Source of the DNA: Ceratodon purpureus
Taxonomy: Eukaryota > Streptophyta > Bryopsida > Pseudoditrichales > Ditrichaceae
Reading direction: 5' to 3'
NCBI GenBank assembly: GCA_014871385.1
Contig: CM026424.1
Coordinates: forward strand, 18,323,357 to 18,387,356
DNA length: 64,000 nucleotides
Shown here: in pieces, positions 29,340 through 50,065 of the stretch
How positions within the stretch are numbered: position 1 is the first letter of the stretch
How the letters are laid out: each line of letters starts with the position of its first letter
The notes under the pieces: generated by a model
The model's input: only the letters and a program-made list of their open reading frames with translations
Databases searched by the model: none
What the model was told of the DNA's origin: nothing
Translations under genes and position numbers: made by a program

Positions 29340-30360
29340 GTTGACAGATGTTGACAGATGCTGAGAAAGGACAAGTGGTTGGAATGCACAGAGCTGGAAG
29401 CAAAGGTGTGGAGATAGCAAGAGAATTAGGTATGGCCTCTTCCACTATTTATGGTGTTATAAAAAATTTCAAAAAATGAGGAAATGTGAAGTCACCAAAG
29501 CCATCGGGTAAGCCTCGAAAGTTTACACAGCAGGTTATGAGACAGTTAGAACGCCTCCTTAGTAAAGATTGTCGAAGACCACTCACAGAAATTACAAATG
29601 AGATGGCACGTATTGCAAAGGTTAGTACTCGTACTGTAAGGAAAGCTTTGTACACCCTTGGTTATAGAAGCTGTGTTGCAGTTAAAAAAAACTTTTTCTC
29701 AGTAAAAAGCATATGGTAGACAGGTTAGCATTTGCTAAAGAGTATAAAAACTGGACAAAGGAGGATTAGTAGAAGGTTATTTGGACTAATGAATCATCTT
29801 TCGAAATAGGAAGGAGTTTTAGACAAATTAGAGTGTGGCAAAAAGCTTATGAAAGATATTCAGATAAATGTCTAGTACCAACTTTCAAGTCTGGGCGTAC
29901 GTCGTTGATGGTTTAGGGTGCTTTTAGTGGCTTTGAAAAGGCTCTTTTAGTAATCATACCTCCAGATAAGCGAAGTGCAAGTGATTTTGTAGATTTTATT
30001 TATGATGGCACTTTAACTCCATTTTATTTTATCCATCATCATTACAAAGACATATTGCTTATGGAGGATGGTGCTCTGGTCCATTGCAACAATTTGCCGA
30101 ACAAGCGGAGAGAAAAAATGTATATAAAGAAGTTGAAGTGGCCTGCCAACTCTCCAGATCTAAATCCAATTGAGAACCTATGGAAGATTATTAAAGATGA
30201 AGATTAGAGTACATCCCGGCCACACAATGGAGAAGAAATGGTGGAATCACTTCATAGAATATGGGAAGAGATACCTTTAGACCTCTTAGAAATCCTTATT
30301 GATACCATGTCTACACGTATAAAGGAAGTAATTAGTGCAAAAGGTGGAAGTAATTAGTAC
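29340..30360 (+). pseudogene. Tc1/mariner-type transposase relic
   Basis: A nearly full-length transposase reading frame with several internal stops and at least one frameshift. The N-terminal paired-like HTH is visible (GSKGVEIARELGMASSTIYG, then a second HTH RIAKVSTRTVRKALYTLGY around 29600-29670). The catalytic segments follow: VIWTNESSF at about 29775, where the usual first Asp (WTDE/WSDE) is Asn; [12 protein letters not shown] at about 30060; and [20 protein letters not shown] at about 30140-30200. Stops fall at about 29477, 29767, 29914 and 30205, and a frame change at about 29690. It is inactive. The tandem GTGCAAAAGGTGG / GTACAAAAGGTGG at 30337-30370 probably belongs to the right terminus. 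Confidence 0.88.
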
Positions 30361-30915: not shown

Positions 30916-31257
30916 TTAGATTGTATCTGGCTTGGGTACATGGGCTTGTACATAATCATACCAAAAATGTGGAAATTCCAAACTATTTAGCTCTTTGATG
31001 CCCTTATCACGAACCTTACTCAAAACAAATGGCAAGGTATTTATAAAATCCGCTATACACATTTGGTATTCATGGTTGGCATCCTCGTTTTCCTCTAGAT
31101 TAACAATTCTTAAATTGCATTTGTTGGAGATGGCCTCTTCAATGGTGCCAAATTCCATATAATCCCACCATGGCATTGGAAATCCCAAGCTAATATTGAT
31201 TCCTTCTTCCTCCGTGTCTTGTACCTTGTGTAGAATAATGGGCAATGCATCCATCAA
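30916..31257 (-). pseudogene. Unrecognised ORF cut by the 18.5-kb element (left flank)
   Basis: A 113-codon minus-strand frame abutting the left terminal repeat. It contains two related modules: MDALPIILHKVQDTEEEGIN...GFPMPWWDYM and INTLPFVLSKVRDKGIKELN...EFPHFWYDYV. These look like a roughly 70-residue tandem protein repeat of no family I know. A matching minus-strand frame lies just outside the right terminus (49850-50065). Removing the element and keeping one TA leaves an open frame of about 30 codons running into MDALPII, but not in the same frame as the right-flank ORF. The pre-insertion locus may already have been decayed. Confidence 0.4.
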
Positions 31258-31260
31258 ATA

Positions 31261-31305
31261 ACACCATATTCGTTATTTTGGGAGATTTATCATCTCCCAA
31301 AATAA
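31261..31305. repeat. Left terminal inverted repeat with subterminal hairpin
   Basis: The 26-bp TIR is 31261-31286. Its inner 14 bases (TTATTTTGGGAGAT, 31273-31286) are followed after a 5-base loop by their perfect reverse complement (ATCTCCCAAAATAA, 31292-31305), so the left end alone can form a stem. Confidence 0.9.
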
Positions 31306-32231
31306 TGCATTAGGTGAGGTCGAGTTAAAATGGGCACAATGCTCCCATACTTGGCAAGGAAAAGCTTATAAGCAATTTCCATTAATTTGGGACATGATCA
31401 CACAGTACTAATGAGAAATGAAAGAAGGTAGTGGTTTACTAGAAATACTTGAAAAAATACAAGGTAGGTCGAACCACCCTAAATGAACATCAAACAAATA
31501 ACAAGAAATGGACACAACGGATATGCGGGGAAATCTTATATTATATATATGTGTGGAAATACAAATTAGGTCGACACTCCTTAAATGTTGAATCCGTGAC
31601 AGGCTCTTTCAGACCTGTACAAACAATCAAGTTGTTCGACTAACATAGCTGCCTACAGTTTCCGGAGTATGATATGCAATCCAAGAACATACGGACTTCA
31701 TAATAGTCCCATGCCAACAAATGTATGTTATCGGCTCTACTTCAGAGATCCAAACTAGGAACTTCAACGCCAGATGTCGTTTAGGTCGCCTCGACCTAAA
31801 TGGCTGTTATGTGGCAGTACATATGATATAGAATCAACGCTTTAGGCTACTAAGTAAAAATCTACACTAAGAACTGTAGGTGACCTGTTGGTATCCCGCA
31901 CTCGTAAAGTACGAACTTCAACTCCAAATGCAGTTTAGGTCGCCTCGACCTAAACTGCGATCTATAATGTGGTACACATGATAAATAAGGAATGGACTGA
32001 AACACTTAAGTAGTGATTCCTCCAATTAAATATATGTAATTAGCTAGTATTCAAAACATAAATACGCTAGAACTAATACGCTATAACTGATCAGGTCGAC
32101 TCGAGCTAAACATCTACCTTTGTCTTGAAAACAGAAGGGACGAACGGTATTCAGTTCAGTCGTCTTCAAACGAATATAAGGGATCTGACTAAATTCAGAA
32201 CTTCAAGACCACCAACTTCAAAGCTACATGT
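31306..32231. other. Left subterminal region with GGTCG-type palindromes
   Basis: Non-coding. Variant palindromes with TTTAGGTCG arms lie at 31780-31800 and 31932-31956, and a half-matching copy at 32092-32111. Two imperfect repeats around AAATACAAGGTAGGTCGA (about 31457) and AAATACAAATTAGGTCGA (about 31558) are spaced about 100 bp apart. These are candidate transposase-binding subterminal repeats. Confidence 0.6.
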
Positions 32232-35069
32232 TTATTCAGAATCCGGAGACAGAAATCTCTCCAAGGAGGCCTTTATAATGTCCAGTTGTTTCAGTGGGAT
32301 CTTCAGCGTTGGATCCTTTCCTACGCCCCGCTCGTTGACATTTTTTTTAACTTTGGATTTCCAAGCTGTTATGACTGCATCAGTACTCTGCCACGACTCG
32401 GGTACATCCTTCTCAACTGTCCAACGAAGTCTCCCATCCACATCCCAGCCGGTATAGAATTTCAACACATTTTCATCTCGGGAAATTGGGCGGTAGAACT
32501 CTACTTGGAGCGTGTTTGGGAGGTCAGGGTTCGAATTAGGGTCAGTCAAGGCCCGCGCAAGCCAAAAAGGACGATCGTCTTCATCGCAGGGTCGTAATGC
32601 TAAGAAGTACCCTGCAAAAAGGTCTCGCGCAACACGGAACGACGGTCCTGGGCGATCTCGTTTGTGACCAACAAAGTGATCATCCTCTGCGAACTCCTCG
32701 CGCAAAGTTCCATCTTCCTGAAACTCGTCTTCGACAGAGTGAGCGAGCCGCGTGGATGGCCAAAAACCATGCTCCAAGGCGGGGACAACATCAAAGGGAA
32801 TGGAAAGAGCCTCTTTAACATCGTTCCAATAATATGAGAGTGGCTCATAGATTCTTCTGGACTCGACTGAATCCGAAGATAGCCTCTCCCAATGATCTAC
32901 AAAACCCGACAAGCCCTTAATCACATCAGGCAGGTGCCGCATCTCGCGAGGCGCCACGGCACCAGGAACACCACGGGGCCATAAAGATCGACCTTCTGAA
33001 TCCTCCTTCCACAACTTGATGCCACAACCATCTCCTTTTGGCAACCAGTCGTCGTCGTGACAGAAGATTTTATACTTCATGACTGGGCATCCTGAAGAAT
33101 CTACATAGAATTTGAACTGATGAGCTTTAGTGTGACCCATTAACGTATCGTCGCCATCAAGCATCCACTCCGCGATGAATTTCTTGAAATCTGGGACCTC
33201 CTGAATAAGATGCGGAATTGTTGGTACTGCTTCATGTTTCATGAAGGACTTCATGAGGAGAGGTACAGTGGGGAAGTCCTCCCTTCGCAAAGCCATGCTC
33301 CATCGCCCGAAAAGGGCATCAATATCGTCATGAGTATGGCCGACCAGCATGAAATTCACGTACACTTCGCGAAACACCCGCTTCGCGACTAATAGGGACC
33401 AGAATGAAAATACAAACCTATTCTTGTTATCACTGACAGCGTTATCCATTTGGACGTTCAGAATGGGAGGCAAGGGTTTAGCAGCAACAGGAACCTCAGG
33501 AGGAGGGCCAAGAGGATCCAAACACATCTCTGAACCATGCAAAAGCGCGGCATACAATGGGTGGGAAGGATTCTCTTGAAAGAGTTCCCTAGAGGTGGAT
33601 TTAGGGGGTGACTCAAGGTCCCGAAGGAGCTTCGCAAACGATCCAACCGTGTAATTAGCGTCGTGTGAGTAAATGTCAAGGCCATAATGGGCGTAACGTT
33701 GGTCCACATGCCCATGAGCAAGCATTCCCGTGACAGCGAGAGGAAGCTTCATGAGACCGTCTAAGTGTTTGACCTTGTGGGATAACGCCGGCGACGCCGT
33801 CTTCGAATGGTCCATTTTGTCATGCATAATAGTAAGAACTTCATGCGGAGTAGCCTTCGACCTGAATCGATTTAGGTAGTACAAGTCCCTATGCGCCATT
33901 GCAGAGTCATTGTGCAGCCTCATTTTCTTAGACCACAACAGGGACGCCTGAGATCCTGTAACCGTTAACTTCTTCTGGGACTGGAACTCATCACATTTTG
34001 AGCATCGAGCGAAGTTGTCTCCTGCTCGTTTGGCGTAATATTCTGGATAGCTAAGCCTCCTGATCTTGCTCAAGTTAGAAGCGGACATAGGAGGCAATCC
34101 GCAGTCCGCTAAATGCTCATCGAGGATGGGAATCTGTTCCTTCCATTTGAAACTGGAAGGCAGAACTTTAGCTACAACTGTCTCCCCTGAAGGCAGAACA
34201 CGACTCTTGTGGGGCATGTGGTCGGCATGCCTGTCCAGGATGGCCCCTAGGACGGCAGTTGCTACCACTGTGTGATTTCGAGGTTTACGTAAACCAGTAT
34301 TACCGTGAAATTGAGCCTCGAAACCAGCAGCAGCATACTGGGCATTTCTATAGAATGTACTGGAGCTCACTCCCATAATCTTCATCCAGGCGAAGGGGCA
34401 AACATCTATGCCCTCCAGAGTCACCACACTCTTCCCCGCTGAATTCTTGTGGATCTGTCTATGCACGTCGAGTTTTATGTGATTACGGAACTGCACTGTG
34501 GTCTTGTCGTACATACGCGACCGTAGACTAGAGATTTTATCTCTGGGATAGTGTTGGACGCATAGGTGAGCGCAGCACGTGTTTGCCGCTACAGAGTTGA
34601 TAGATGGCTGGGTCATCAGAAACTCAGCGTGACGTGATATAGGAGGGGGGGTATTCCTAGAGGAGTTATCATACGATCGGGTACGATCTCCCAGGGATCG
34701 GTTACGCTCCACAACCCAACGGTTATACACATCACGTTGACTATGGTGCTCTAGGCTAACTCCATTTAGATAGACGTGGCTGATAGGCCACGTTTTGAAG
34801 GAGTACCTCCAATCATCCTCTGACTCTTCTTCGACCAAAGAACGTGATACCTGGACGACGACAACGGAATCACCAAGGGGACCAACCGTGTCAGATACCA
34901 AGCTGGACCGTGGGTTCCGGATCAAACCTTCTGCTAACGGGATATTGTCGTCACTATATATTGTTACAGTCTTGTTCTGCCATTGTCTTGAGGGTACAAC
35001 CACGAAGTTTGGAAGGTCTGGGTTTACGGGCACTTCAACGGGAACCTCGTCATCTGAGACATAGTCCAT
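32232..35069 (-). CDS. Transposase-like protein of the element (DUF7869-type RNase H-like core), 945 aa
   Basis: One long open frame beginning MDYVSDDEVPVEVP, with the ATG at 35067-35069. An acidic N-terminal region (1-150) is followed by a mixed helical region with a helix-turn-helix-like segment (MKIMGVSSSTFYRNAQYA). A CxxC knuckle (ARCSKCDEF) is near residue 355, and HDKMDHSK near 415. The core is LNVQMDNAVSDNKNRFVFSF near 540, then VGHTHDDIDALFGRW near 580. From memory, 'DNxxxxNKN...VGHTHxDID' is the signature of DUF7869-type proteins, seen in plant, fungal and arthropod repeat elements; I regard it as an RNase H-fold transposase. The D415/D541/D583 set is a plausible catalytic trio, which is inference. 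The C-terminus has a Tudor/chromo-like patch (FWLARAL...VEFYRP...W). The frame is uninterrupted, so the protein could be functional. Confidence 0.75.
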   Translation of the reverse strand: MDYVSDDEVPVEVPVNPDLPNFVVVPSRQWQNKTVTIYSDDNIPLAEGLIRNPRSSLVSDTVGPLGDSVVVVQVSRSLVEEESEDDWRYSFKTWPISHVYLNGVSLEHHSQRDVYNRWVVERNRSLGDRTRSYDNSSRNTPPPISRHAEFLMTQPSINSVAANTCCAHLCVQHYPRDKISSLRSRMYDKTTVQFRNHIKLDVHRQIHKNSAGKSVVTLEGIDVCPFAWMKIMGVSSSTFYRNAQYAAAGFEAQFHGNTGLRKPRNHTVVATAVLGAILDRHADHMPHKSRVLPSGETVVAKVLPSSFKWKEQIPILDEHLADCGLPPMSASNLSKIRRLSYPEYYAKRAGDNFARCSKCDEFQSQKKLTVTGSQASLLWSKKMRLHNDSAMAHRDLYYLNRFRSKATPHEVLTIMHDKMDHSKTASPALSHKVKHLDGLMKLPLAVTGMLAHGHVDQRYAHYGLDIYSHDANYTVGSFAKLLRDLESPPKSTSRELFQENPSHPLYAALLHGSEMCLDPLGPPPEVPVAAKPLPPILNVQMDNAVSDNKNRFVFSFWSLLVAKRVFREVYVNFMLVGHTHDDIDALFGRWSMALRREDFPTVPLLMKSFMKHEAVPTIPHLIQEVPDFKKFIAEWMLDGDDTLMGHTKAHQFKFYVDSSGCPVMKYKIFCHDDDWLPKGDGCGIKLWKEDSEGRSLWPRGVPGAVAPREMRHLPDVIKGLSGFVDHWERLSSDSVESRRIYEPLSYYWNDVKEALSIPFDVVPALEHGFWPSTRLAHSVEDEFQEDGTLREEFAEDDHFVGHKRDRPGPSFRVARDLFAGYFLALRPCDEDDRPFWLARALTDPNSNPDLPNTLQVEFYRPISRDENVLKFYTGWDVDGRLRWTVEKDVPESWQSTDAVITAWKSKVKKNVNERGVGKDPTLKIPLKQLDIIKASLERFLSPDSE

Positions 35070-35073
35070 TGTG

Positions 35074-35618
35074 CCTGAAATGCAACAGGCCCAATTCTGT
35101 TAGAACATATTATACTCCTTAAAGAGAATTAATCTCTAAATTTGTAGGGAAACGTATCCCAGGCGCAGTTTAGCTCGAGTCGAGCTAAACTGATCCTGGA
35201 CAATGGGAAGCATGAGTTTAGCTCGAGTCGAGCTAAACTGCTGCTGCACTTTGGATGCAGAAGTTTAGCTCGAGTCGAGCTAAACTCATGCTTCCCATTG
35301 TCCAGGAGCAGTTTAGCTCGACTCGAGCTAAACTACCGCACCCATAGGGCGCCAGAAGTTTAGCTCGAGTCGAGCTAAACTTCTGCCGCCCTTTGGGTGC
35401 GGTAGTTTAGCTCGAGTCGAGCTAAACTGCTGCATCCAAAGGGCATCACGAGTTTAGCTCGACTCGAGCTAAACTCATGATGCTCTTTGGATGCAGCAGT
35501 TTAGCTCGACTCGAGCTAAACTACCGTCCGCAAAAGGCGGCGCTTTAACAGGTGCTTCCATCTTCGGAATTCTGAGTCGCAGACTCAGAGTACGCTTACG
35601 GTGTCCGCTCTAAAACGT
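35074..35618 (-). promoter_or_regulatory. Predicted leader exon and 5'-UTR intron of the transposase gene
   Basis: On the minus strand an acceptor TTGCATTTCAG ends just before GCACAATGG, the start-codon context. A donor GTAAGCG borders a 19-base exon at 35600-35618, itself preceded by a CTTCTTACAG acceptor. This predicts an intron at 35075-35599 that contains the whole 8-unit palindrome array. The splice sites are seen; their use is unproven. Confidence 0.5.
35165..35523. repeat. Palindrome array A: eight 25-bp palindromes at about 47-bp spacing
   Basis: Each unit is AGTTTAGCTCGA, one central base (G or C), then the reverse complement of the arm. Units start at about 35168, 35215, 35262, 35309, 35356, 35403, 35450 and 35497. 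The central base runs G,G,G,C,G,G,C,C on the plus strand. The roughly 22-bp spacers are themselves arranged as inverted pairs. For example the block TCCTGGACAATGGGAAGCAT (about 35191) recurs inverted at about 35288, giving nested palindromes. Confidence 0.95.
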
Positions 35619-36117
35619 CTGTAAGAAGGAAAGAGAGACACTGCAAATACACCATGACTTGAATCAATGGAAAGCATACAACAAGCAGATATCAATGAAG
35701 TGTACTGATGATAGGAGAAAACTAAAGAGAAGACGTACAACAGAAACGGCGCAATACAGCTTCCGCCCAGAAAACAACAATCTCCAAGTGAGCGCCGAGA
35801 GCTCCTACAAGCGAGAGAAGCAAGTGAGTAGAGAAAAGACTTCGAGCGGGGACGATTCCAGAGGTCATTCTCTAACGTGTGACCGTTTTCATGCCGCTTC
35901 AGTTTTGAAAATAGGCGGGAATCATGCATGACCATTCGACCCTCCACATTTCGGGGTGTGAGAAAGCGCGGGAATTACCACTTTCCACACTTCTCGGCCC
36001 TTTAGATAGATGCAGATGCGAAATATTTGGTGCATTTAATCAAATGGGATGGGTTGGAAGTCCCTATAGCGCCAGATAGAGTGTTGACTTATTGCGGCGA
36101 ACTTTTCTTCCTCTATC
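35619..36117. other. Region upstream of the transposase gene, no gene seen
   Basis: Probable promoter/leader of the minus-strand transposase. Both strands have an approximately 100-codon open frame here (35585-35947 -, 35659-35931 +), neither protein-like. Confidence 0.35.
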
Positions 36118-36205
36118 AGGGTTCAGGGTTTAGGGTATAGGGTTCAGGGTAAAGGGTTTAGGGTCTTAGGTCCAGGGTCAAGGGTTTAGGGTATAGGGTT
36201 AAGGC
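36118..36205. repeat. Degenerate plant telomere-like repeats (GGGTTTA type)
   Basis: About ten imperfect units alternate GGGTTCA, GGGTTTA, GGGTATA, GGGTAAA and GGTCTTA in a row. It is an interstitial telomere-like tract within the element. Confidence 0.75.
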
Positions 36206-36739
36206 ATTTTTAGGGACATTAAATATGTCGTACATGGAATAAAATTAAATCGAAAATTGTTTGGACCTAATTGAAATTCGTGAGTCTGGTTGATACAGGG
36301 AAGTACATCGTTGCAAATATTCATACCTCCATTTACTAAATATGTATTTTTGCTCAATTTCATTATTACATATGATATATGAAATCAAATCATTATAAGT
36401 CAGTTCATGAATAGTTCTTGATAGACCTAGGTAGATATGTTTTTAAATTTAGAATTATTTATTTATTCTACAAATTAAGTCAGATATAATTGTCATATAT
36501 TATGTATATATATTCATGTATTTTTATTTATGTCTCTATTTATTTCATAATGTGTTCTTTACGCCGTGAATGGTGTAGATTTGTTCTTTCGTTTCTGGAA
36601 CTCTACATCTTAAGATGTATATTTTTAATATACATGTTAGGATTATAATATGTATAATATAATGATATATTCATTTACAAGTAGGTACTACTATATTCAT
36701 TAACAATTTAATGTCCAGTTAAAAATAGTACGAGAATAA

Positions 36740-39700
36740 TTAAGTAAAATCTAATGTATACAAATCTTAAAATGATATACAAGTATATTCAAGTATATAC
36801 GAAATACATTGTTAAAAATAATAGTATTAGATTATAGAATTTAATTCATTTCTCATGGCAAATTATATACGTTTTTTAGAATATTGAATTTTTAATATTT
36901 AATCATGAGACGCAAATATTTGAACCATGGTATGCCTTGTGTGATAGGCATGGGGTGAAAGTACGTTGACCTAAATGTAAGCCTAATTTTCTTAAAGTAC
37001 ATGATAGTATCATAATCAAATTATAATATAATAAAATAGTATAGTATATCAAGGCTCTAATATTTTTATTTGCAATTTTATATTTAATTATTGATTAAAA
37101 TATGAGAATAATAAAACAATATTCAAGTATATACAAATCTAAAAATGATACACAAATATATTCAAGTATATATACGAAGTACATTGTTAAAAATAAAAGT
37201 ATTAAATTATAGAAATCAATTCATTTATTATGGCAAATTCTTTATATTTTTTAAAAGGTTTATGGTTAATTATATTTATTCCTGAGAAGCGAATATTTAA
37301 ACCATGGTATGCCTTGAATGGTAGGCATGGAAATTACACAAACCTTAATCAATTCATTAATGTTCTACCTTGAGTTCTATTTGTACAATTTTAGTACATT
37401 CTAATAAGAAAGTGGAATGTTTGGTTCATTCATTTTTTTAAAAAAACTCATAAATTATGGATTCAAATGAAACGTTTTAAACCAATGATCATAATTATAG
37501 TTGTAGTATTAATATATATTATCGGGAAAGGCTCTAGATGCTTGTCTAAGCTTACAATCCCATAAATCAATTCTTTAATAATAAATAAAAATGACACATT
37601 TAAGTAAATCCGGACTTTCGGAAGCCCACATCGGTCAAAGTCCCGTTACCGAGTCTGGTCAAAGTCCCGTGCGTTACTCTGGAACATTCGGCTTTCCGCT
37701 CATGCTGCTTCATAAGCATAAGTTCCTTTGGGCGACGAAACAGTTGTTTCATTCTTAGTTTCCCTTCTATTTCATTTACTTGTAGTTCATTTGCTGTGAT
37801 GAGGAGGTCGGGCGGTGGTTTTAGGGTGTCAAGTTACCCGCAAGATGAGTGGGAGGTGGTTGTTTTTCCACAAGGAGTGGAGGAGCTTCGTCCCTGGTTT
37901 ATGGCTGTGGAACGCGCCCGTGGTCGCGGCGTGGAGATTCCCCCGTGGAACCTCATTGCACGCCTAATGCAGCCCAGTGTTGAGTGGGATTGGACTATTG
38001 CACATGGTCTAGAGCAACTGGAGATTATGAACGCCTCGAACATCAAGTTTCCCCTCACCTCCGGCGAGGGCTTCTCTCTGCCTGATTCTAATGAGGAGGG
38101 GAGCGAAGATTTGGGGAGCCCACCACATGAATGAGTAGGTGAATTGTTATCTCCTCAGAACCCTTGACCTTGTCCTCAGTTTGATGTTTTCATAATAATA
38201 GATTGCGTTTGCTGTATGTGGTGCGCAGCATTGTAGTGGCTCATGCTGTGTTCGTTCTGATTGTTAGGAGGATGAGTCCTTGCTTTTGACATGCACTTTT
38301 CCGTTTTGAACCCTAAACATCATACCATCTGATCCTGTTTTATCTTTTCTCCAGAACTCGCAGGCATCTTCCATATACTTCTACGATTTTACTTTTTGCT
38401 GCTATTCAACTCAGATATGGAATGGGGACTCCAGGAGTAGTTAGCACAACCGTTAGATTATACAGTATTTGGAAACCGTAGATGTGAAAAGAGATGACTT
38501 TCATCTTTTGGTAACTTTTGCTGATGGTATTCACCGTGTGGATTGTAAACAATTTCTGGAATGGAATGCCTTCAAAACAGGGCTCTTCTAGACGAAAACT
38601 AGTGTTTCATCTGATGCTTTCATATTTCAATATTTCGTATTCTTATATGTCCATGCTAACTAGTAAATGTAGTAGTAAATTTCGTTTGAATCTATGAATT
38701 ATGAATTTTGTATTTTAAAATTATGCAAATGAAGCAAGCATTCCACTTTCTTATTAGAATGTAATAAAATTGTAAAAATATTAGTCAAGGTAGAACGTGA
38801 AAGAATTGATTAAAACTATTGTAATATACATGCTAATCATACAAGGCATACCATGGTTAAAATATTCGCTTCTCATGAATAAATATAAAAAACCCTAAAC
38901 CTTCTAAAAAATATAAATAATTTGCCATAATAAATGAATTTAATTCTAGAATTCAATACTATTATTTTTAACAATGTACTCCATATATATACTTGAATAT
39001 ACTTATATATCATTTTTAGATTTGTATATAGATTTGAATATAGATTATAATTCTAGTATTATTATCATTAATTAAATATAAAATTGTAAATGAATATATT
39101 AGTATCTTAGTAAACTATACTATATTATTATATTATAAATAAATTATGATATCAACATGTACTTTAGGAATATGATGACAACATTTATGTAAATATGTTT
39201 CCAATTAGAGTTTATGAAATTCATTTTCATTGCTAATAGTGTAACCATATTTGATGCTTTAGTCAAATAATTACAAACTATTATTACATAAAAAAAAAAT
39301 GTACATTTTCATCCTTTACAATTGATCATAATTTGTCCACTTCGAAGCTCGAAATTGTGTATTTTTTCAAAACATCCAAAATTGCGTGCAATTTCTTTTG
39401 AATAGAATTTTAATTTATAAACCCTATTTGTTTATTCTATATTATAATATTTCCATATCTTACTGTAAATTTAGTACCGGGGAGGCTAAAAGCTAATAAA
39501 GACAATAAAAAAACATACTTCTCTATCTTTCATTCATAGATATTCAGAAATCTAAATCTAATGTAGATTCACAAATTTATATGAATCCATGTATAATCAA
39601 AAAGCAATACCAACTGTACATAATGCAAGCATGTTTTGAACCATTGTAAAAAATTACCAATCCTTTTCATCTGAATAAAAAAAAAATGAGTTCCCTATCC

Positions 39701-40215
39701 TCGTACTTTAATCATTAATTAAATATGATATTCTAAATGAATATATTAGTACCTTAGTATACTATAATAATTTATTATATTATTGATAAATTATGATACT
39801 AACATGTACTTTAAGAGTATGATGAAAACATTGATGTAAATATGTTTCCTATTAGTTTATAGTGAATTCCTTTCATTGCTTATTAGAGTATTAACTTCAT
39901 AGATCCAAACTAGGATTATTGTGTTAATTAAATTTAAAGACGTCTCATATACGATTAATATTAGTAAAGATAAAATATACGTTAAAAAAGTAGAATATTT
40001 CCTACTCATGAATATTTGTAGTTTTGTAGAAATTAAGTTTCTCTTATAAGAAACTAATTCGTACAAAAATATTAGATTCTCTTGACCATAATATTAAAGT
40101 AATGTAATTGCACCTTAGTAGATAATAATGAATATTTACAAAATTTTAAATATTTGCTTCTCATGAATAAATATAAAAATTTCAATTCTCTAAAAATTGT
40201 TATTAATTTGCCTAG
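36740..40215. repeat. AT-rich core with multiple direct and inverted copies of a roughly 440-bp repeat
   Basis: A block containing ACCATGGTATGCCTTG and a run reading AAGTACATTGTTAAAAATA occurs in direct orientation at about 36740-36960 and 37120-37330, and inverted at about 38830-39030. A second block (containing ACATGTACTTTA) is at about 39070-39180 and 39710-39830, and inverted at about 36985-37080. The best pair of long inverted arms is about 36990-37470 against 38690-39170. They share, inverted, GTACATTCTAATAAGAAAG / CTTTCTTATTAGAATGTAA. A partial further copy is at about 40135-40200. Confidence 0.7.
37799..38134 (+). CDS. Hypothetical 112-aa protein between the inverted arms
   Basis: A GC-rich open frame in an otherwise AT-rich island, beginning MRRSGGGFRVSSYPQDEWEV and ending in an acidic tail (DSNEEGSEDLGSPPHE). 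The middle (RGVEIPPWNLIARLMQPSVE) looks helical. No family recognised. Just upstream, GGTCAAAGTCCCGT occurs twice (about 37634 and 37659). It sits almost centrally between the long inverted arms, so it may be cargo of a nested element. The ATG at 37799 is chosen because the frame has no earlier ATG. Confidence 0.45.
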   Translation: MRRSGGGFRVSSYPQDEWEVVVFPQGVEELRPWFMAVERARGRGVEIPPWNLIARLMQPSVEWDWTIAHGLEQLEIMNASNIKFPLTSGEGFSLPDSNEEGSEDLGSPPHE

Positions 40216-40341
40216 TTAGATTTTGTGCTTGCTCAAGTGTCTATACCATTTTATAATATCATATATTAATACTACAACAATGTTGTCCATTGATATAGGA
40301 CAATACATTTGAATCCATAAAATGAGGATTCTATTTTTCGA

Positions 40342-40353
40342 ATATATATAAAA
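40342..40353 (+). promoter_or_regulatory. TATA-box candidate for the right-arm gene cluster
   Basis: ATATATATAAAAG lies in the spacer about 100 bp before the sequence turns abruptly GC-rich (from about 40455). That GC-rich stretch is the probable untranslated leader of the ParB/methyltransferase-like gene. Position and motif are suggestive only. Confidence 0.35.
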
Positions 40354-40454
40354 GAGTAAGAAAATTAAGTTCCGTTTCTGTATTTGAGAAAACCAAAAAA
40401 ATATTTGCTGAACGAAACTTAAAATAAAAAGGTAGAAAACAGTAAAAAAAAGTG

Positions 40455-41786
40455 AAACCTGCGGGGACGGGGTAGTGAACCCCGCGGTGACGGGGCCAGG
40501 GGATATGGCGGCGCGGTCATGGGTCAGTGCGAGGGGGAGGAGCTCATCCCCACCGCGACCTCGTCCACAGAGTGTTTCTTTGTTTCCTCCCTTTCTCTGT
40601 CTGTGTCTGTGTCTGCGCTCGTTTCTTTGTAGTGGCGGGAATATATTCCGTGAGAGACTGTGTAGTAGAGTTGTTTTGCGCGAGTTTTCAGGGCTTCCTC
40701 TGCTCCATTTCCTTCCTCTAGAGTGTGTGACTTCTATGTTTGAAGTACTGTTTGTCTCTAGGGTGTAGGTTTTAGGGTGACGGTTTCAAATGTAAATGCG
40801 CGGAGGGAGTTGACAGTGTTTTGCGCTTGAGCTTGTGCTTATTCGAGTTGTTTCACGGATCTCTGTTAGGTTTTCCTGTGCTGGGTTCTTCCTCGCTCTG
40901 TAGGGTTTAGGTGTATTTCATATCTGTCGTTCTTGTGCGAACTTCTTCGGTGCTCTGTGGAGGCGTGCGGTTTGGATTGGGGTTTCGGGAGGGGTGGAAA
41001 ACAGTCTTGCGGCGCTAAATATCAGGTGCGTAATTGATCGTGCCTGTGGTTTCTTTTTTCTTTCAGTTCAATTCCATTGAATTTCGCAATTTAGGGTCTT
41101 GTCAATTGAGTTTTTTCGTTTTTTTTTTGTTTCAATTATAATTCTTTGGCATGATCTCGCTAGTTTAGGATTAGCATCCTGTAATTTTCGTACTGAATTC
41201 TGAATTGCGTGTGTCTGTTTATGTTCGTACTCTTTATGTGTTGTATGTGTGTTTTCTGTGGAAGAATTCTGTTTTGATCTCGTATTCTGTGTGTGTTCGA
41301 ATTTAGACTTCTGTTTGTGTTTGAATTATGAATTGGTTCGTCTACTGTGTGTGTCTGTTTATGTACGAATTCAGAATTGTGTTCGTGTCCTGTCTGTGTA
41401 TCTTCGGTTTCGAAATCTGAATAATGTTCGTTTTTGGTACGTGTGTGTATGTTTGAGATTTAATGTGTGGTTCTCAACAGGATTGTGTGAGTGCATGTGT
41501 GTACCATAAGAAAAACAATAGCATATTCCTTGCAGTTAGGTTAATTGATGTCGAGGTTGTAGTTATGTTGAGAACAGATTTGCTACGTTGCATTAATTTT
41601 GGCGCCAATGTTTTGAGCCATATGTGTATGTGTTATGGTAATCTGAACGACTTTGCTTATATTAGAATCTTCTGAAAAAGAATCCAATTACATTTGTACT
41701 TTTCTCCCGTATTTTTCGGTAGCAATCTTGAACGTTTCTAATATTTATCCCATCTTCTGATCCTCTGCAACCATTTCTTTTTGCAG
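40455..41786 (+). promoter_or_regulatory. Predicted 5'-UTR exon and first leader intron of the 1253-aa gene
   Basis: A GC-rich leader (40455 to about 41023) ends at a donor AAATATCAG/GTGCGT. It is followed by T-rich, GTGTGT-rich intron-like sequence and the acceptor TTTCTTTTTGCAG at 41786. Open frames inside (40475-40768, 41249-41509) are low-complexity and not considered genes. A short GC-rich hairpin (GGGGTAGTGAACCCC) is near 40470. Confidence 0.4.
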
Positions 41787-41842
41787 GCAAAACACGTTTG
41801 CCATAATTTCCAAGAGAGAAACAGGAGCTAATTCATCTGGAA

Positions 41843-44800
41843 ATGGCGGATAGGTATAAAACCAAATGCCAATATCATATACTCCTCATGAAAAAGGCTT
41901 GACTGCAGTGCTGCAATGTCAAATTCAACAAAAACAGAGAATAATGCAATATATTTTTCATAAAACTGACGGAAATTCGATCATAAAAGCCAACAGTTTA
42001 GCTCGACTCGAGCTAAACTGGAGGTACAACTCTCCTCCACATCCTGGGAGTTGTACCTCCAGTTTAGCTCGAGTCGAGCTAAACTGTAGGGCTCCCATGC
42101 TCAAAGCCCAAGCAGTTTAGCTCGACTCGAGCTAAACTGCAAGGCTCCCATGCTTAATCCCAACAAGTTTAGCTCGACTCGAGCTAAACGGCTTGGGCTT
42201 TCAGCACGGGAGCCTTGCAGTTTAGCTCGAGTCGAGCTAAACTGCTGGGATTCAATGGTCAAAGCCAAAGCAGTTTAGCTCGAGTCGAGCTAAACTTGTT
42301 CGGCGCCATGCTCAAAGCCCAAGCAGTTTAGCTCGAGTCGAGCTAAACATCTTGGGTATAAGCATGGCATCCCAGCAGTTTAGCTCGACTCGAGCTAAAC
42401 TGCTTGGGCTTTGAGCATGGGTGTCCAGCAGTTTAGCTCGACTCGAGCTAAACTGCAAGGCTCCCATGGTCAAAGCCCAAGCAGTTTAGCTCGACTCGAG
42501 CTAAACTGCAAGGCTCCCATGCTGAAAGCCCAAGCCGTTTAGCTCGACTCGAGCTAAACTGCAGGGATGCCATCGGTTACTTAATTAATAGAATAAACAT
42601 TTAGCTCGAATCGAGCTAAATGGCTTTGAATTTGTCTAATGGTAAATGTCTCCTCCTTGCAGTGAGGAGAAAGCAAGGGTAACTGAGGCGCTACGACATT
42701 TCTTCAAGCCTGTTCCTATATCTGATTCAGATGACGATGACGGGGATGACTCAAGCTCATACGAGCCGTGGACCTTCAAAGACCCCACGAAGGTCAAACA
42801 TTGGACTCTGCGATGGGTTGCATACACCCCATATCTTACCTTCGCAACCATTTTCAAGGGTGAAGTCGATGATCCCCACGTCATCGACATGGATACAAAG
42901 GTCACCGAGTGTGACAATAAGGGAAAAGACGAAATCAGGATCCTCTGCTCATCTACCGGGGCTAATCCATACCTCTTCTCCATAGTAGTAGACGTAGCGG
43001 AGAACCTCTTCGACCCCATTTCCTTAATGGAAAGTTTGTCCAATTCACCTTTCGAGGAGATAGTGTCCACGATGAGACAAGAAATACTGGACAAGAAATG
43101 GGCAACAAAGGATGGACGAACTCTCGGGGCGAAATCCCTAGCGTGGAAACTGAGGAATGTCGTCTGCACCCTTGCTCTCCGCGCAACGGAGGCAAAGGTG
43201 AAGCAGAACCTCGGAAAATCTCAAGTTGACGTCTCTGGAGTGACAGCAACCGGGAGTCACATGGGGAGCCAACAGACAGGACGCAGTAGGGGGAGAGCGA
43301 TAGTTCCATCCCAAAGCCGAGGCGCTTCTGCAACTCCCACGCCCCACTCACCATTGAAGAAGAAAGGACTCGAGAAGAAAACTGACAAGCCAAAGCCCAA
43401 GAAGGACTTGCTCTTATCTGCGGAGGACTTGGCAACAAGTTTGAACTCTGTTCTCGGGGAACTCCCCAAGGTGAACAAGGCTGGAGAGATCCTGGACTTC
43501 GACAACGCCAATCGCATTTACCAGAATTTCTTTTCAGATTGCCAGGACGAGTTTGTCTTCAAAACGAATGGGCAACCAAAGAAGTTCAGTGTGGACGTGA
43601 CGCGGTGCAAGCCCGCACCGGCCGCATGGACTATCCGTGCGTATGAGAAGCGGGGCATGGAGGAGATGAAGAATTACCTGGTCAACATGCCTGATAGGGG
43701 TCAAAAGCAAACCCTGTGTCTGATGCCAGACACAAAGGCTCGACCTCAACAAGAATCGGATCTGGAAGGCTGTGAATTCCACATCATTAACGGGCAACAC
43801 AGCGTGGCGGCGTCCAAATCTCTCATCGAGGATAACGCCAGTGAGGAGTTGTTGAGGGACTTCAGGAGGTGGGATGCGTACATCGTGTGGACGAAGGATC
43901 ATGATAAGCTGCGAAAGATCTCAGCATTCTATAATCGGGTGAACCATCTCGCACCCTTCAAGCCAACTTGGGCGAGCAATATACTTGCCGCTAGAAAAGT
44001 GTGGGAGAAATATGGTAAGCCCCAAAAGAAAAATGCTGCCGCTGGTGCTGCGGACCGCAGGAGTACAGGTCCGAAAAGTAATCCAGCTTCGAAGACATAC
44101 GAGGTAAGTTCACTGATTCATTAGCATTGGCAGTTTAGCTCGACTCGAGCTAAACTTCCTGCAGTTTAGCTCGAGTCGAGCTAAACATTGATAATCTTTT
44201 TCGTTTTCAATATTCTGGTATATCTCGATCAATTTAGCTCGAGTCGAGCTAAAGAATAGTTCCGAGACAGCATCATCTAAGGTTTCTTCCTGTGAGTATG
44301 CAGAACTTTTTGAATGCTATCAGGGAGCGCTTCGCTATGATCGATGTGGCGAAGCATCAAGCCATGGTGGCGAAGAAGGGAGGGAAGAACACAATCTCCC
44401 TAACAAACGAGCTGTTTATCATCACATCCAGTGATGAAACATGGGACCTGTGGAAGGAGGTGATCGCGTCTGCGGCATGTGGTGGACTCATTGATCCCGA
44501 CAGCGAACCTCCACATAAGAAATTCTATGAGAGGAAGGGGTTCGTTCCGGACAAGGATGGGACGCTTCCGAGGGAGTTCTTCAAATGGCTCGGGAACTTG
44601 ACAGAGGCAGATCACCAGAAGATGTGTAAGCACATCCTGCATAAGTCTGGGCCAAGTCGGAAGTACACATATCCGAAGGTGACCATCAAGCAGAATACGA
44701 GTGTATTGGAGGACTGCTACTCGGTCAAGGAGTGGGCGGAGCGGAGAAAACGTAAGGCTGTAGCTCAAGCGGAGTTCAACAACATTAATCCAACGCTCCA

Positions 44801-46748
44801 TTTATTCAAGAGAGACGGCCTTGATGTACCCGCTTGGAAGCACTTCAAGAAGACTTACTTTGTCTCCAAGGAGTCGAAGCACGTTCTGCTTGATTGGGGT
44901 ATTCCAGACTCGTACTGGACTAACTCCAGAGCTACACAGTTCCGCAACAAGACGGCCAAGGATCTCTCCCCATATGCGGTTGAGTTCTTCAAAACCTTCC
45001 TGAAGGTTCGACATGCGTTTAAGTGTCCTTCAGCTGAGATGTGGTTCCTCCCATTCGTCAGGGAGCCTCGACTGTCCTTCGGATCCTGGCCCTCCGATAT
45101 ATGGAGGTTGGCGGGCGGCGCACTCACATTCGGAATCATCGACTTCCGGTTCCTCCCAACCTACAAGACGAGGCAGAACTACACTTTGGAGAACCCCTTC
45201 TTCATGGAGTTCTTCAATATGATCGAAGAGTATGGGCAGCCCCAGTTTAACGATGTTCGGCACTGGCTACTCATTTGCGGAGACGATGAGGACTTCGCCC
45301 AGGTGCTCACTTGGGTGGAGCGAAACACCTTGAGTGGTCGCAGAAGAGTCCCTTCTGAGTATTTACCCGCTCCTAACGAGCGACTTGGCGGACACCCCCC
45401 AAAGAGCAGAATCGCGATGGAACCCGTCAAACTCCTGTTTCTCATTGATGATAATTTACTTGAGAACGTCGGGTCAACGCCAGAACCTCTGAGCGAGTAC
45501 AGAACTCCGGACCACCCACTGTACAAGGACAACAGGAAGTTCAACGAAAGGAGGTACGCAATGTATCCATCCGAGTTAAGGATGGAGTTCTACCTGCAGG
45601 TCCTCGACACTTTCCGCAGTACTGGGGTGGCGATTTATCAGCTCTATGCGGGAACGAAGTCCCTCATAGCCGCCGCGGTAAGTTTCCACACTTTAGGTCG
45701 AGTCGAGTTAAATCGTTCCACTGTTTTGATCACATGCACCATGTATGCACACACTTCCACACTTTAGCTCGAGTCGAGCTAACCGTGTTTACCTTGTCTT
45801 TGTTTTCTTCAGATGCTCTCGATCTCGTCTTTCGTGGTCGCGGACGATAGTGACTCTCCTCATATGGTCGAAGCTCAGGCACTTGGATTAACTCTGGACC
45901 CAACCGATTTTAGTGTCGACGCTTATTTTGTCGATAAGGAACGGTTTCCGGAATACGGCAGAGCCGTGCGGAAAGGGAAAGGCAGAGCTGCGGAGGAGGG
46001 TGACGATGTTGATCTGGAGGAGGATGCCCCCACCGAGGAACAGACTCCCTCCTCCAGTGCTGCGGACATTAGCAATGAGAGCGATGCTCCGCCTTCTGAT
46101 CCGGTAAGTCAGACAGCATCTGAGGGTGGAGTGGGGAGAAGACTCGAGTTTCCAGACGTCGACATTACACGTACGGACGATGAGAGACCGGGTTCTGCAC
46201 CGGAGCTGGGATCCGGAAGTGGGAGAAAGACTGCCGCTGCGCGAAGTACTGGAAAGCCGGCTCAGAAGAAAAAGAGGGTCAATCCTCCAGCTCGGCAAGC
46301 CTCCCCGTTGGGGAGAGCCGCTCCCGATCCGGATATTCAAGCTATTCTCGCAGAATTGCAGGCGACCAAGGACAGGAATCAAGCATTACAAGATCGGATG
46401 GCACAGCAGGAAAAGGATATAGAGAAGACCGTGCAGGCGGCACTGCAGAATGTTCTGCAAGGCATGGGTAGTGCCACTCTTTTCCCGAATGCGGGTCCAG
46501 TTCTGCCCAATGTCCAGCCGATAGGTAGTGCCCTGCCTACTTCGCGAGTACTTGAGATTTTGGGCTCCCCTACTGGTGGTGCAAAATTGCCAGAGTCGGA
46601 TCCGAGTCCCGCATCAGTGCCTGAGCCAAGCCATCATTCCACCGACCAGGTCATGCGTGACCGTAGTCCCAGTCCTCCCCGTTCTCCCTCCCACAATCAG
46701 ACTCAGGGAGATGCTCCCGAGACATCTTCAGGTCCCTCCCAAACTTAG
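41843..46748 (+). CDS. ParB-like plus degenerate amino-methyltransferase-like protein, 1253 aa, four coding exons
   Basis: Coding exons are 41843-41853, 42663-44103, 44304-45677 and 45813-46748 (stop TAG), all in phase with GT-AG borders. The first exon gives MAD and splices as AG/T to read MADSEEKARVTEAL. Residues about 1-200 are unassigned, followed by a basic Ser/Pro linker. Residues about 290-480 contain FHIINGQHSVAAS near 379, matching the 'DGxHRxxA' strand-turn-helix of ParB/sulfiredoxin-fold domains. Residues about 485-960 end in YPSELRMEFYLQVLDTFRST then YQLYAGTKSLIAAA, spliced to MLSISSFVVADDSD. This has the layout 'KPxxLLExLIxxFSxPGxxVxDPFxGSGTTxxAA' of N4/N6 amino-methyltransferases, but the SAM loop is altered and no DPPY-type motif is seen. 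A coiled coil (about 1118-1155) and a Pro/Ser tail follow. Fusion of these two domains is known in prokaryotic and phage proteins. Splicing is strong; domain calls are inference. Confidence 0.68.
41854..42662 (+). repeat. Palindrome array B: twelve palindromes inside intron 1 of the 1253-aa gene
   Basis: Eleven AGTTTAGCTCGA-(G/C)-inverse units start at about 41997, 42061, 42114, 42167, 42219, 42271, 42325, 42377, 42429, 42482 and 42536, at about 53-bp spacing. A twelfth, diverged unit (central A) is at about 42601. Spacers are copies, in both orientations, of a block like AAGGCTCCCATGCTCAAAGC. The intron is bounded by AG/GTATAA at 41854 and CCTTGCAG at 42662. The central base on the plus strand runs C,G,C,C,G,G,G,C,C,C,C,A. 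Confidence 0.93.
44132..44253 (+). repeat. Three palindromes inside intron 2
   Basis: Copies at 44132-44156, 44164-44186 and 44233-44253, all of the TTTAGCTCGA arm type, lie within the 200-bp intron 44104-44303. Confidence 0.93.
45692..45782 (+). repeat. Two palindromes inside intron 3
   Basis: Copies at 45692-45712 (TTTAGGTCGA arm on the left, TTAAA variant on the right) and 45763-45782. Both lie in the 135-bp intron 45678-45812, leaving almost no other intron sequence. Confidence 0.9.
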
Positions 46749-46850
46749 ATTTTTTGAACTCGGAATTTTGTAGATGAGGTGTTAATACCGGAGTAGTTCA
46801 CTGAAATGTGCATTTTGTACCAAAACGATTGTAATTAATACAAATGGGCT

Positions 46851-46873
46851 GTTTAGCTCGACCCGAGCTAAAC
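46851..46873. repeat. Single palindrome between the 1253-aa gene and the HAD gene
   Basis: GTTTAGCTCGA with its inverse, centre changed to CCC. It lies 100 bp after the stop codon of the upstream gene and before the first recognisable exon of the next. Confidence 0.9.
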
Positions 46874-47008
46874 TGTTCAACTTTTTACCAATCCCTTCTA
46901 TGTCACGTTCTTTGATCACTCTCTGATGATTCTATAGTTCTCTTGCAATGCCCAGGTCACGAAGTGAATGAGGAAGTGGAAGATCTTCGGATCCTGGATG
47001 ATGTTGTC

Positions 47009-48122
47009 ATGGCCCAAACTGCGGATGAGCCTGGACGCACAAATATGGATTTAGATGTCACGGCCCAGTGTTCTCTGACCTTGCCAACGTGCGTAGAGGT
47101 CATTCCTAACGATCAACCTCAGAATTCATTAGGGTCGATGGGTCCTGTGGAGGATCGGGATGTTGTAGAAGGCCAAGCCGAGGATGCTCAGGTATTTCAT
47201 CTATCATTATATCTCGTTGCACTATTTCCTTCGAGAATGACTTGCCTTGCGACTGTCCTTATTGTATCATTCGTATAACCCCGTCCTAGTATAATATAGT
47301 AATGTCCATCTGTCATCGGTATTTCCTCTCCAGGTGCGCGAGGCATCTGGATGTGACGTAAGTTCTAGTGAAGAATTGAGTCCTGTCCCGACAAGACCTC
47401 AGAGTGGTTGGTTGAACGTTGTCCTCGACCTTAATGGAATACTATGCTCCAGTACTCCTAATTGGCCTGGAAAATCATTCGTTAGCCATGACCTTAGCAT
47501 CCACTCAGCGTCCAAGCCAGCAGTCGTGGGCCCCAAGCTTGTTTGTGTCAGGCCCAATTGCGCTGAATTCCTTCGTCGGTTGTCAGCATTCGCAACCATA
47601 ACCGTCTGGAGTTCGATGAAGACTTCGACGACAAAAATGATCTGCGACTATATGTTTGGTCCGATTCGTCCTATCTATCCGCTCAGAATTCTAGGTCAAG
47701 AGGACTGTCAGAGAGTTCCTATGGGCGTAGATTTTCGAGGTCGTCCGATATATATGAAGGAACCCGGGACTCAGAAGGACATCTTCCTGAAGCCGATGTC
47801 CGATGGTCTCTTCCGTAAATTTGGTGGCATATATTCCGAAGCCAACACCATTTTCATCGACGACAGCCCGATCAAGCACTGTCAGAATAATTCTTACAAT
47901 GTCCTTCTACTCTCCACTTGGAACAACCAGAATCCCGATGCCGCAGATGATCGTTTTTTGTTGTCGAAACTTTTGCCATATCTTGTAGACCTACACCACT
48001 TTGTGGGGACAATCGCTAGATTCAGGGCCGAGCGTCCGATCGGGAAGAAAATGTATTATGATGACCGTTCTACCTGTGAACGATACGCTAAGATTAATGA
48101 GGCAATTAGTCGTAGACCATAA
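47009..48122 (+). CDS. NIF/FCP1-type HAD-family protein with altered DxN motif
   Basis: Two exons are visible: one ending at about 47190 (GAGGATGCTCAG/GTATTT) and 47334-48122 (stop TAA). The first is acidic (VVMAQTADEPGRTNMDLDV). Its coding part may begin at the ATG at 47009 or in an unseen upstream exon joined at about 46955. The second exon has HAD motif I as VVLDLNGILC, motif II-like TITVWSSMKTS, and motif III/IV IFIDDSPIKHCQNN with a conserved C-terminal LLSTWNNQNPDAADDRFL. This is the order of NIF/FCP1-like (CTD-phosphatase-like) proteins. The catalytic nucleophile Asp is kept, but the second Asp of DxDx(T/V) is Asn, as in some plant relatives (from memory). Activity may therefore be altered or lost. 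Its role in the element is unknown. Confidence 0.72.
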
Positions 48123-48463
48123 TTTCGCATGGTTCCGGTTCTCTACTTTGTGAATAGACATTTCATCACTGCCGCGCACCTATTAGTATGTTGAACATCT
48201 TAACCACTTGCGTAATCTTTGTATCCAGACTACTCCTTTTGTAATACGAAGATCATATTTCTTTCTTGATCTACTCTGCCCCTTGCGACGAACCCTTATC
48301 AATTGCTGAATTATTGGTGGATGTATGTTTCTATTCGCTTTGTGTATTGCAGGATAATGCATGTCGAGCCTCTGTGGATTCTTTGAATTATGCTTATGGC
48401 TGCGGGCCCTCTCTACGTAGCAGAGGGCTTCTGTTGCAATCCGTTGCAACAGCGCAGTCCACG

Positions 48464-49183
48464 ATGGACTATTCAACTATGGCTGTCGACGAAGGGGTTG
48501 TGGACAGCCCGGTTAACCTGTCCGTTCCCAAGACCCTGAAATCCCCTTCTCCTATGTGGCCACGGACCGTACTGCATGTTCTATCTCCGAAACGACAGAG
48601 TTCTACCCCTACGAAGCGTGCTCTTTATAACAATGTGGAGGACATGCCGTCACCACCACTGGCAAAGGTTGGTTTTCATTCCTCAGTATTCACTCTTCAT
48701 TCCTTTCTGATGTTTCATTCTTGTAAGTTTCTTTCGTGATGTTTCATTCTGATGTCCTTATTTTAGCTCGATGCCACCTAAAATGATTGATCTTCTTATA
48801 CTCTCGTCTAGGTCTAGTCCTAGCTTATGTAGGCCTCCTCGTTCAAGGTCCGTTTCGACCTTTACAATTGCACTCAGCAGTTTAGGTCGATTCGACCTAA
48901 ACCGAAATCTCTTCCCAATGCTAACTTATCCCCTTTGCAGATGCCGAGGCTGCGATCAACAACTACTGGATCCAGGGCAAGGAAGTCCGCCGACTCCCAC
49001 TCTAAACCATCCAGTACCCGTCGCCACTCTCTGCCAGAGTCAAGCATCGGTGACAGGCGTAGGCAGAAGTTGCAACGTCTTCTTGATAGTCCAATGATGC
49101 AGGTTGAGGGAATGTCGTGGACACGTCAGCGCCAACGGGAATTTGTCAAGTCAAGAATTGAGGCTTACGGAGGGACTCCATAA
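48464..49183 (+). CDS. Small basic protein, 148 aa, two coding exons
   Basis: Exon 48464-48667 (MDYSTMAVDEGVVDSPVNLS ... MPSPPLAK, donor AAAG/GTTGGT) joins 48941-49183 after TTTGCAG. It continues MPRLRSTTTGSRARKSADSH and ends EFVKSRIEAYGGTP, stop TAA. The exon may extend upstream to an acceptor near 48353 (GTATTGCAG) as 5' UTR. Rich in Ser, Pro, Arg and Lys with SPKR/SSTPTKR motifs, it could be a nucleic-acid-binding or nuclear protein; no family recognised. It is the last gene before the right terminus, and its intron carries one palindrome (48881-48901). Confidence 0.55.
48881..48901 (+). repeat. Single palindrome in the intron of the 148-aa gene
   Basis: TTTAGGTCGA, one T, TCGACCTAAA: the GGTCG variant, perfect arms. 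It lies within intron 48668-48940. Confidence 0.92.
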
Positions 49184-49739
49184 CCATATAGAGGATACTA
49201 TGTACTGTATAGCAATGGCGCAGACAATATAGACGATTAAAAGACTCCTCTGTGTTATTTCAATGTAATTATGTTTTGAATAAAACGATTGATCTGTTTG
49301 TCAAATTTTCTCGTCTGCTATTTTTGCCTCATTGTCTTGCACACTTCTTGTGTTATTCAAATTTCCGAATGTAATTTATGTGAGTTGACATTGCCTTTTA
49401 TTGAGACCTTGGTTTAGAAAAGGTAATGGATAGTTACTACTAAAATTACAGGGGACGTGGTATATTCTTTTTCCTTGTTTATATTGCGTTTAGGTGTGAT
49501 CGACCTAAATGACTTAATCATCATCTCTATTTAAACATGTTTTTAATGGATCAATGAACATTACTAAGTTTTCTCCTGTATGTTCGTGCATTTAGGTCCA
49601 CTCGACCTAAATCACATGGGCCTCATTGTTCCTTTAAGGTGTTATTAATGATTCAATATTGATTTCCGCAAGATTGAAGTAAATGGGAGATGACGAATGT
49701 CGCCATTTCTCTGCACTCTGATTTCCCAAAATCAAGAAT
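49184..49739. other. Right subterminal region with two GGTCG-type palindromes
   Basis: Non-coding. Imperfect palindromes at 49489-49509 and 49591-49611 mirror those near the left end (31780-31956). Probably 3' UTR of the last gene followed by subterminal binding sites. Confidence 0.65.
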
Positions 49740-49765
49740 ATCTCCCAAAATAACGAATATGGTGT
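49740..49765. repeat. Right terminal inverted repeat
   Basis: Exact 26-bp reverse complement of 31261-31286, followed by TA at 49766-49767. Confidence 0.92.
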
Positions 49766-49849
49766 TAAATCCAAAATGCCCAAATGATCAACACTTGTAG
49801 TGGTACCATTAGTGGGAGAGAGATCTTCCTCAAAAGAAAGGTTTGCTTC

Positions 49850-50065
49850 TTATTCATGAAGATTTTGAAAGTGACAATTGCCTTCATTTATGGCATGGAA
49901 TTCTTCCAAGTCATTGATAAGTCCATGTGACAATGAATTTGGATTGTCTAAATTTTCCTTGACATTGAGCAACTCAAGTAGAATGTTTGTGAGGGCCTTG
50001 TCATTCAAGGTATGTGTATCCATGGCAACTTGTTGATTGTAGGTGATATGCTCCATGACCTTCAA
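49850..50065 (-). pseudogene. Unrecognised ORF in the right flank of the element
   Basis: A 71-codon minus-strand frame (MKVMEHITYNQQVAMDTHTL ... EFHAINEGNCHFQNLHE) ending 85 bp from the element. It has the same strand and style as the ORF on the far side of the insertion (30916-31257), so both may be parts of one interrupted, decayed gene. No family recognised. Confidence 0.35.

Follow-up and report, generated by a model that had tools for sequence, protein, structure and literature searches.

VANDAL transposons, which are Mutator-like, are defined by a MULE transposase and a VANC-type protein. In Arabidopsis, the element VANDAL21 carries a 9-base motif in tandem in its introns and upstream regions; VANC21, a protein of the same element, binds this motif and brings about a loss of methylation there (PMC5735166). 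Lanisha is a proposed superfamily of DNA transposons (Maumus, McDaniel and Carey 2020, via PMC12730594) that is described as EnSpm-like and whose region from the second D to the last E contains C(2)C and H(3-4)H; the ends of the CMC/CMCT clade, which includes Lanisha, are mostly 5'-CA..TG-3', and the KDZ elements (Kyakuja, Dileera, Zisupton) have 7- or 8-bp target duplications (PMC12730594). Here we describe an 18,505-bp unit in a 64,000-nucleotide stretch (the window) of the moss Ceratodon purpureus (assembly GCA_014871385.1, contig CM026424.1, positions 18,323,357 to 18,387,356, forward strand). The unit is almost certainly a transposon of the moss, read here as an autonomous cut-and-paste DNA element, and it carries 33 copies of a 21-bp palindrome. 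In the whole scenario that we propose, to which we give a probability of roughly 0.5, a protein of the transposon's own coats these palindromes and counteracts silencing.

The unit spanned window positions 31261-49765 and was bounded by exact inverted 26-bp ends with TA outside each, as a sequence-only reading of this DNA had claimed. Its ends and genes were as follows.

31259-31260, no strand: TA, left, either a target duplication or, if the inverted end is 28 bp long, its outer 2 bp (ambiguous)
31261-31286, plus strand: left terminal inverted repeat, 26 bp, exact inverted copy of the right end
32232-35069, minus strand: DUF7869 protein, 945 amino acids (aa), single exon (PF25273, E = 1.5e-42, Pfam)
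41843-46731, plus strand: large gene, first part, exons 41843-41853, 42663-44103, 44304-45677 and 45813-46731 (splice model, Ceratodon homologues)
46956-48122, plus strand: large gene, last part, exons 46956-47191 and 47334-48122, with a NIF/FCP1-like domain (PF03031, E = 1.3e-13; fused in Ceratodon homologues)
48353-49183, plus strand: small basic protein, exons 48353-48667 and 48941-49183, start ambiguous (splice model)
49740-49765, minus strand: right terminal inverted repeat, 26 bp, exact inverted copy of the left end
49766-49767, no strand: TA, right, with the same ambiguity as the left TA

With up to 3 mismatches allowed, the 26-bp end occurred twice in the window compared to a mean of 0 in 100 shuffles. 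The DUF7869 gene was a single open frame without an internal stop, and in Pfam at E ≤ 1 its protein matched DUF7869 alone, with no DDE_3 or similar family. An AlphaFold2 (AF2) model and structure comparison predicted an RNase H-type core at about residues 411-596 and a possibly BAH-like C-terminal part at about 809-929; the conserved acidic residues were D420, D542 and D584, and a C2C pair preceded the first D. On this model the protein is predicted to be a DDE/D transposase, in keeping with the intact transposase-like gene of the earlier reading. The exact paired ends, the open transposase-like gene with its predicted core and 16 Ceratodon protein clusters related to the second gene give good support to a large DNA transposon of 18.5 kb with intact genes, as had been proposed. 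The ends and the predicted RNase H-type transposase are those of a transposon of known kind. Intact frames and relatives 98-99% identical also make it plausible that the element is young or active. A search of 5.39 million papers for the word DUF7869 returned none; if the moss DUF7869 proteins are transposases of very large intact elements, a function is thereby given to an entire domain family.

The palindrome was 21 bp long, TTTAG[CG]TCGANTCGA[CG]CTAAA, with a centre of TCGA-N-TCGA. At up to 3 mismatches, 33 copies were detected, all at 31780-49611, compared to 0.01 expected from shuffles, and none in the remaining 45.5 kb of the window. They were distributed as follows (no strand assigned).

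31780-32110: left subterminal palindromes at 31780, 31934 and 32090, GGTC...GACC type, the third a hybrid
35169-35520: array 1, upstream of the transposase start codon (leader intron assumed), 8 palindromes, period about 47 bp
41997-42620: array 2, 12 palindromes, period about 53 bp, in intron 1 (41854-42662) of the large gene
44134-44253: 3 palindromes in intron 44104-44303 of the large gene
45692-45783: 2 palindromes in intron 45678-45812, the same intron that has palindrome traces in relatives
46852-46872: 1 palindrome in intron 46732-46955
48762-48901: 2 palindromes in the small-gene intron 48668-48940
49489-49611: right subterminal palindromes at 49489 and 49591, GGTC...GACC type

A single palindrome family had been said to run through everything between the ends. 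The single family stood, with copies in the unit only, but its spread was narrower: no copy started in coding sequence (about 8.2 of the 18.5 kb, with one exon end taken as 46735 and the small gene included), none lay at about 35.5-42.0 kb, and intron 47192-47333 of the large gene was also free of them. The GGTC...GACC form predominated within about 900 bp of the ends and the GCTC...GAGC form internally, and the choice of form was matched across both arms in 30 of the 33 copies. The arms were complementary in 30-33 of the 33 sites at steps 2-10 from the centre and in 28 at step 1. The spacers of array 1 formed three inverted pairs with a similarity of 0.92-0.96, a pattern that would arise if repeat units were inverted about the palindrome while the array expanded.

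A distant relative carried the same palindrome. Among 54 stretches matched in a pattern search, one encoded a transposase relative; this 4,327-bp contig (CADCWO010000071.1, here L001) has a record titled cyanobacterial, and it is probably stray moss DNA contaminating a cyanobacterial assembly. Over 943 codons, the relative of 944 aa shared 67.7% identity with the moss protein; silent sites differed by 0.845 per site, beyond saturation, and the nonsynonymous divergence (dN) was 0.235. The flanks of the gene contained five palindromes (two exact, one with one mismatch and two with two) compared to 0.01 expected, complementary in 4, 4, 2, 5 and 2 of the five at steps 1-5, and the gene itself contained none; the element ends were absent from the 4,327 bp. 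When the flanks were compared with the window by BLAST with the low-complexity filter off, 191 of 196 matches at E ≤ 1 overlapped palindromes, and the best other match had an E of 0.047. Because the palindrome outlives nearly all other non-coding sequence in L001, it has the look of a site of two-fold symmetry that a protein binds and selection maintains.

Traces were also present in predicted proteins homologous to exon 44304-45677. In 28 of 54 homologues the protein ran on beyond the splice site for 8 or more residues of the following intron. A translation of the palindrome with at most one substitution was present in 13 of the 28 read-through tails, from relatives 36-98% identical, and absent from the other 15. 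The coding parts of the same 54 proteins gave five such matches in 22,371 residues. Altogether 20 palindrome peptides were counted in the 54 proteins compared to a shuffle mean of 1.1 and a maximum of 5; some of the tails were already known when the peptide patterns were chosen, and the counts are descriptive. No enrichment was observed in 103 transposase homologues (2 compared to a shuffle mean of 4.25) or in 16 full-length proteins (2 compared to 1.3), as expected because these are coding sequence.

The second gene was larger than the earlier reading had it. The exons 41843-41853, 42663-44103, 44304-45677 and 45813-46748, joined through GT-AG introns, gave an open frame of 1,253 aa, which the sequence-only reading had treated as a ParB/methyltransferase-like gene separate from the NIF gene. 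Annotated Ceratodon purpureus homologues of this frame fell into 16 protein clusters, 73-98% identical by best local alignment, with alignments spanning 66-100% of the first 960 residues, and 15 of the 16 also matched PF03031 (NIF; best E 2.3e-12, with E up to 10 allowed). Since the annotated Ceratodon proteins continue into the NIF domain, the two parts are most likely a single spliced gene, although the annotated models may themselves be gene predictions. Of five homologues inspected, three (P0104, P0107 and P0117) had ETSSG directly followed by HEV, as a splice from about 46731 to 46956 would give; the region was predicted differently in P0105 and P0119. The donor of intron 46732-46955, GTCCCT, is weak; against the single gene, read-through of this donor meets a stop at 46748. 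The exons of the small basic protein may be a further set of exons of the large gene, and its motif DNACRAS was found in one of the 16 homologues (P0119). The four genes of the earlier reading thus reduce to what appear to be two divergent transcription units, possibly three.

Within the large protein, a ParB-like motif, INGQHS, was spotted by eye; neither Pfam nor NCBIfam gave a ParB/Srx-like match. The AF2 model of frame 44253-45767 predicted a fold like that of beta-class DNA methyltransferases. Motif IV read DFRxxP[GT] and motif I read FxGxK, and the usual [DNS]PP[YFW] and FxG[ST]G occurred in none of 55 sequences (the motif I region was present in 42-43 of them). We therefore rejected an active beta-class DNA methyltransferase on motif IV; in both motifs the protein differs from the N6-adenine and N4-cytosine enzymes of this class (M.BceJIV, CcrM, MTA1). 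In the NIF domain, DLN replaced the usual DLD.

The second gene had been described as cargo, which now appears misleading. Homologues of its exon ranged from 25 to 98% identity, similar to the transposase homologues (33-99%), and the contigs of one transposase homologue (P0030) and one exon homologue (P0149) were both 224,779 bp long, the sole such pair noticed and paired on size alone. From these two observations it is probable that elements of this kind regularly include the large gene. The locus tags of the 16 Ceratodon clusters, which are protein clusters rather than element copies, were UG in nine, VG in three, autosomal in three (5G, 9G and 11G) and unplaced (N) in one, where we read UG and VG as the U and V chromosomes. 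With 12 of 16 so tagged, the family may bear on how moss sex chromosomes grew.

In the mechanism that we propose, the DUF7869 transposase would recognise the inverted ends, probably aided by the subterminal palindromes, as its predicted fold and the ends suggest, and would move the unit with generation of a 2-bp target duplication. The large spliced protein, or one part of it, would bind the 21-bp palindrome as a dimer. As palindromes occupy the arrays, the majority of the remaining introns (singly or a few together) and the subterminal DNA at each end, such binding would coat the non-coding DNA of the element, and this self-marking would keep promoters and introns open against host silencing. 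The methyltransferase-like domain lacks its usual catalytic motifs and DLN stands in the NIF domain, so both may have a binding role, with DNA and the transcription machinery as partners. The layout is the same in kind as that of VANDAL21, hence the proposal that the palindromes are bound by one of the element's own proteins, likeliest the large protein, and that this binding holds the element open. We consider binding of the palindromes by an element-encoded protein to be probable, and give anti-silencing as its effect even odds. Through the palindrome, the way in which such elements may evade silencing can be approached directly: three predictions follow from it, of a binding site, of a protein and of a phenotype, each testable in moss.

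The same transposon could use the palindromes only as transposition signals, that is, as sites, both subterminal and within the element, for the transposase or an accessory protein, much as TNPA sites serve Spm/CACTA elements. The segregation of the GGTC...GACC form near the ends from the mostly GCTC...GAGC form inside, as if there were two classes, is consistent with this. However, introns held 20 of the 33 palindromes, and 18 of the 20 came no closer than 2.8 kb to either end; a further 8 were arrayed upstream of the transposase start. Movement alone needs none in these places; we regard this explanation as possible but doubtful.

It is improbable that the palindromes work by folding back as RNA or DNA, in hairpins within introns or in cruciforms, with effects on splicing, small RNAs or replication. 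The inverted spacer copies of array 1 do mean that long hairpins can form, and array 2, for example, had arms of 150 nucleotides that were 89% complementary. The 14 sites outside the arrays, however, kept complementary arms close to the centre: step 1 was complementary in 9 of them, steps 2 and 3 in 12 each and step 4 in all 14. The centre is where a hairpin of RNA would require an unpaired loop, so a two-fold DNA-binding protein explains the central complementarity better.

The ParB-like motif, the methyltransferase fold and the palindrome arrays together recall plasmid partition loci, as if an integrated virus- or plasmid-like replicon carried parS-like sites and a ParB-like large protein. 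This is very unlikely: a Pfam scan of eight frames found no polymerase, capsid or packaging family, searches of viral contigs with the palindrome, the transposase (a single sequence and an alignment), the ends and the exon alignment gave no confirmed relative, and the large gene has introns throughout. Only a single copy of the unit was read, as a chance pair of short non-autonomous ends around unrelated genes would allow, but one palindrome family spans 31780-49611 and is absent outside the unit, and the related transposase gene in L001 is accompanied by the same palindrome, which makes chance scarcely credible.

A transposon with TA target duplication had been claimed, and this part was not established. 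The inverted match of the ends is 28 bp once the flanking TA is counted, and because TA is self-complementary, a TA duplication with 26-bp ends and an AA duplication with 28-bp ends agree equally well with the two ends. The flanks were joined under four assumptions and the open frame across the junction was compared: it was 154 aa for TA, 140 aa for AA, and 120 aa (28-bp ends) or 142 aa (26-bp ends) for no duplication, a range in which frame length is not decisive. Only the AA join read GILDLMDALPIILHKV, which aligned without gaps to CIADFINTLPFVLSKV later in the same frame (7 of 16 identical; one short alignment, noticed post hoc). We lean towards AA with 28-bp ends as the better fit to the interrupted flank frame. 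This minus-strand frame with an internal repeat (30916-31272 and 49634-50098), maybe interrupted by the element, has a stop in the right flank, and a Pfam scan of its pieces 30916-31272 and 49850-50098 gave no match.

Further features were observed within and near the element. The AT-rich, palindrome-free middle contained inverted arms of 303 nucleotides, 87% complementary and 1.3 kb apart (37128-39030), possibly a nested insertion; the open frame between them (37604-38134) had no Pfam match. Degenerate telomere-like repeats (AGGGTTT) lay at 36116-36204 between the two divergent genes. The motif GCGGGAA, which we take to resemble E2F sites, occurred at 35915, 35968 and 40635, in both presumed promoter regions, and also at 45648 and 50729, hence not exclusively there. 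About 1 kb to the left of the element were remains of a Tc1-like transposase (29480-30207, plus strand), with HTH_Tnp_Tc3_2 at E 5.4e-5 (under its cut-off) and DDE_3 at E 1.4e-9 (29917-30207).

Membership of the described groups was considered in turn. Tc1/mariner (IS630-Tc1-mariner, ITm) was rejected, since the element gave no DDE_3 match while the nearby Tc1-like fragment, as a control, did (1.4e-9); the moss element is 18.5 kb long with two genes, TA is only a candidate duplication, and no sequence relation was found. The authors of Lanisha reportedly work on Ceratodon, and Lanisha may come from the same moss. We rejected CMC/Lanisha, with Lanisha compared by description only and with D542 and D582/584 taken as the second and third acidic residues: there is no cysteine in D542-D584, and the C2C pair precedes the first D. 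The ends read ACACC, or TAACACC with TA counted, compared to mostly 5'-CA..TG-3' in the CMC/CMCT clade. The flanks shared at most 2 bp, against the 7- or 8-bp duplications of KDZ, which was rejected as well. VANDAL was rejected because none of the eight frames matched a MULE transposase or VANC-type Pfam model at E ≤ 1. In the literature searched, no account turned up in which a protein of methyltransferase fold goes together with a dispersed palindrome of deep conservation, and Repbase may hold a named entry.

The closest likeness is to VANDAL21/Hiun. Both have a short element-specific motif, often in tandem arrays and mainly in non-coding DNA, including the introns and upstream regions of their own genes, and both have one or more extra genes beside the transposase. 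No shared protein family was found, and only DUF7869 and NIF passed Pfam cut-offs here. The VANDAL21 motif is 9 bases in one orientation, whereas that of the moss element is a 21-bp dyad, and VANDAL motifs shift between related families, whereas the moss palindrome survives silent-site saturation. Binding by VANC21 is proven, and binding in the moss element is inferred by us. Tentatively, and at rather less than even odds, the moss DUF7869 elements may be an undescribed superfamily that marks its own DNA through a dimeric protein of its own, with a repurposed methyltransferase fold and an FCP1-like domain, reading a long-constant palindrome that array growth has spread through its non-coding DNA; sequence-specific anti-silencing would then have arisen independently outside flowering plants.

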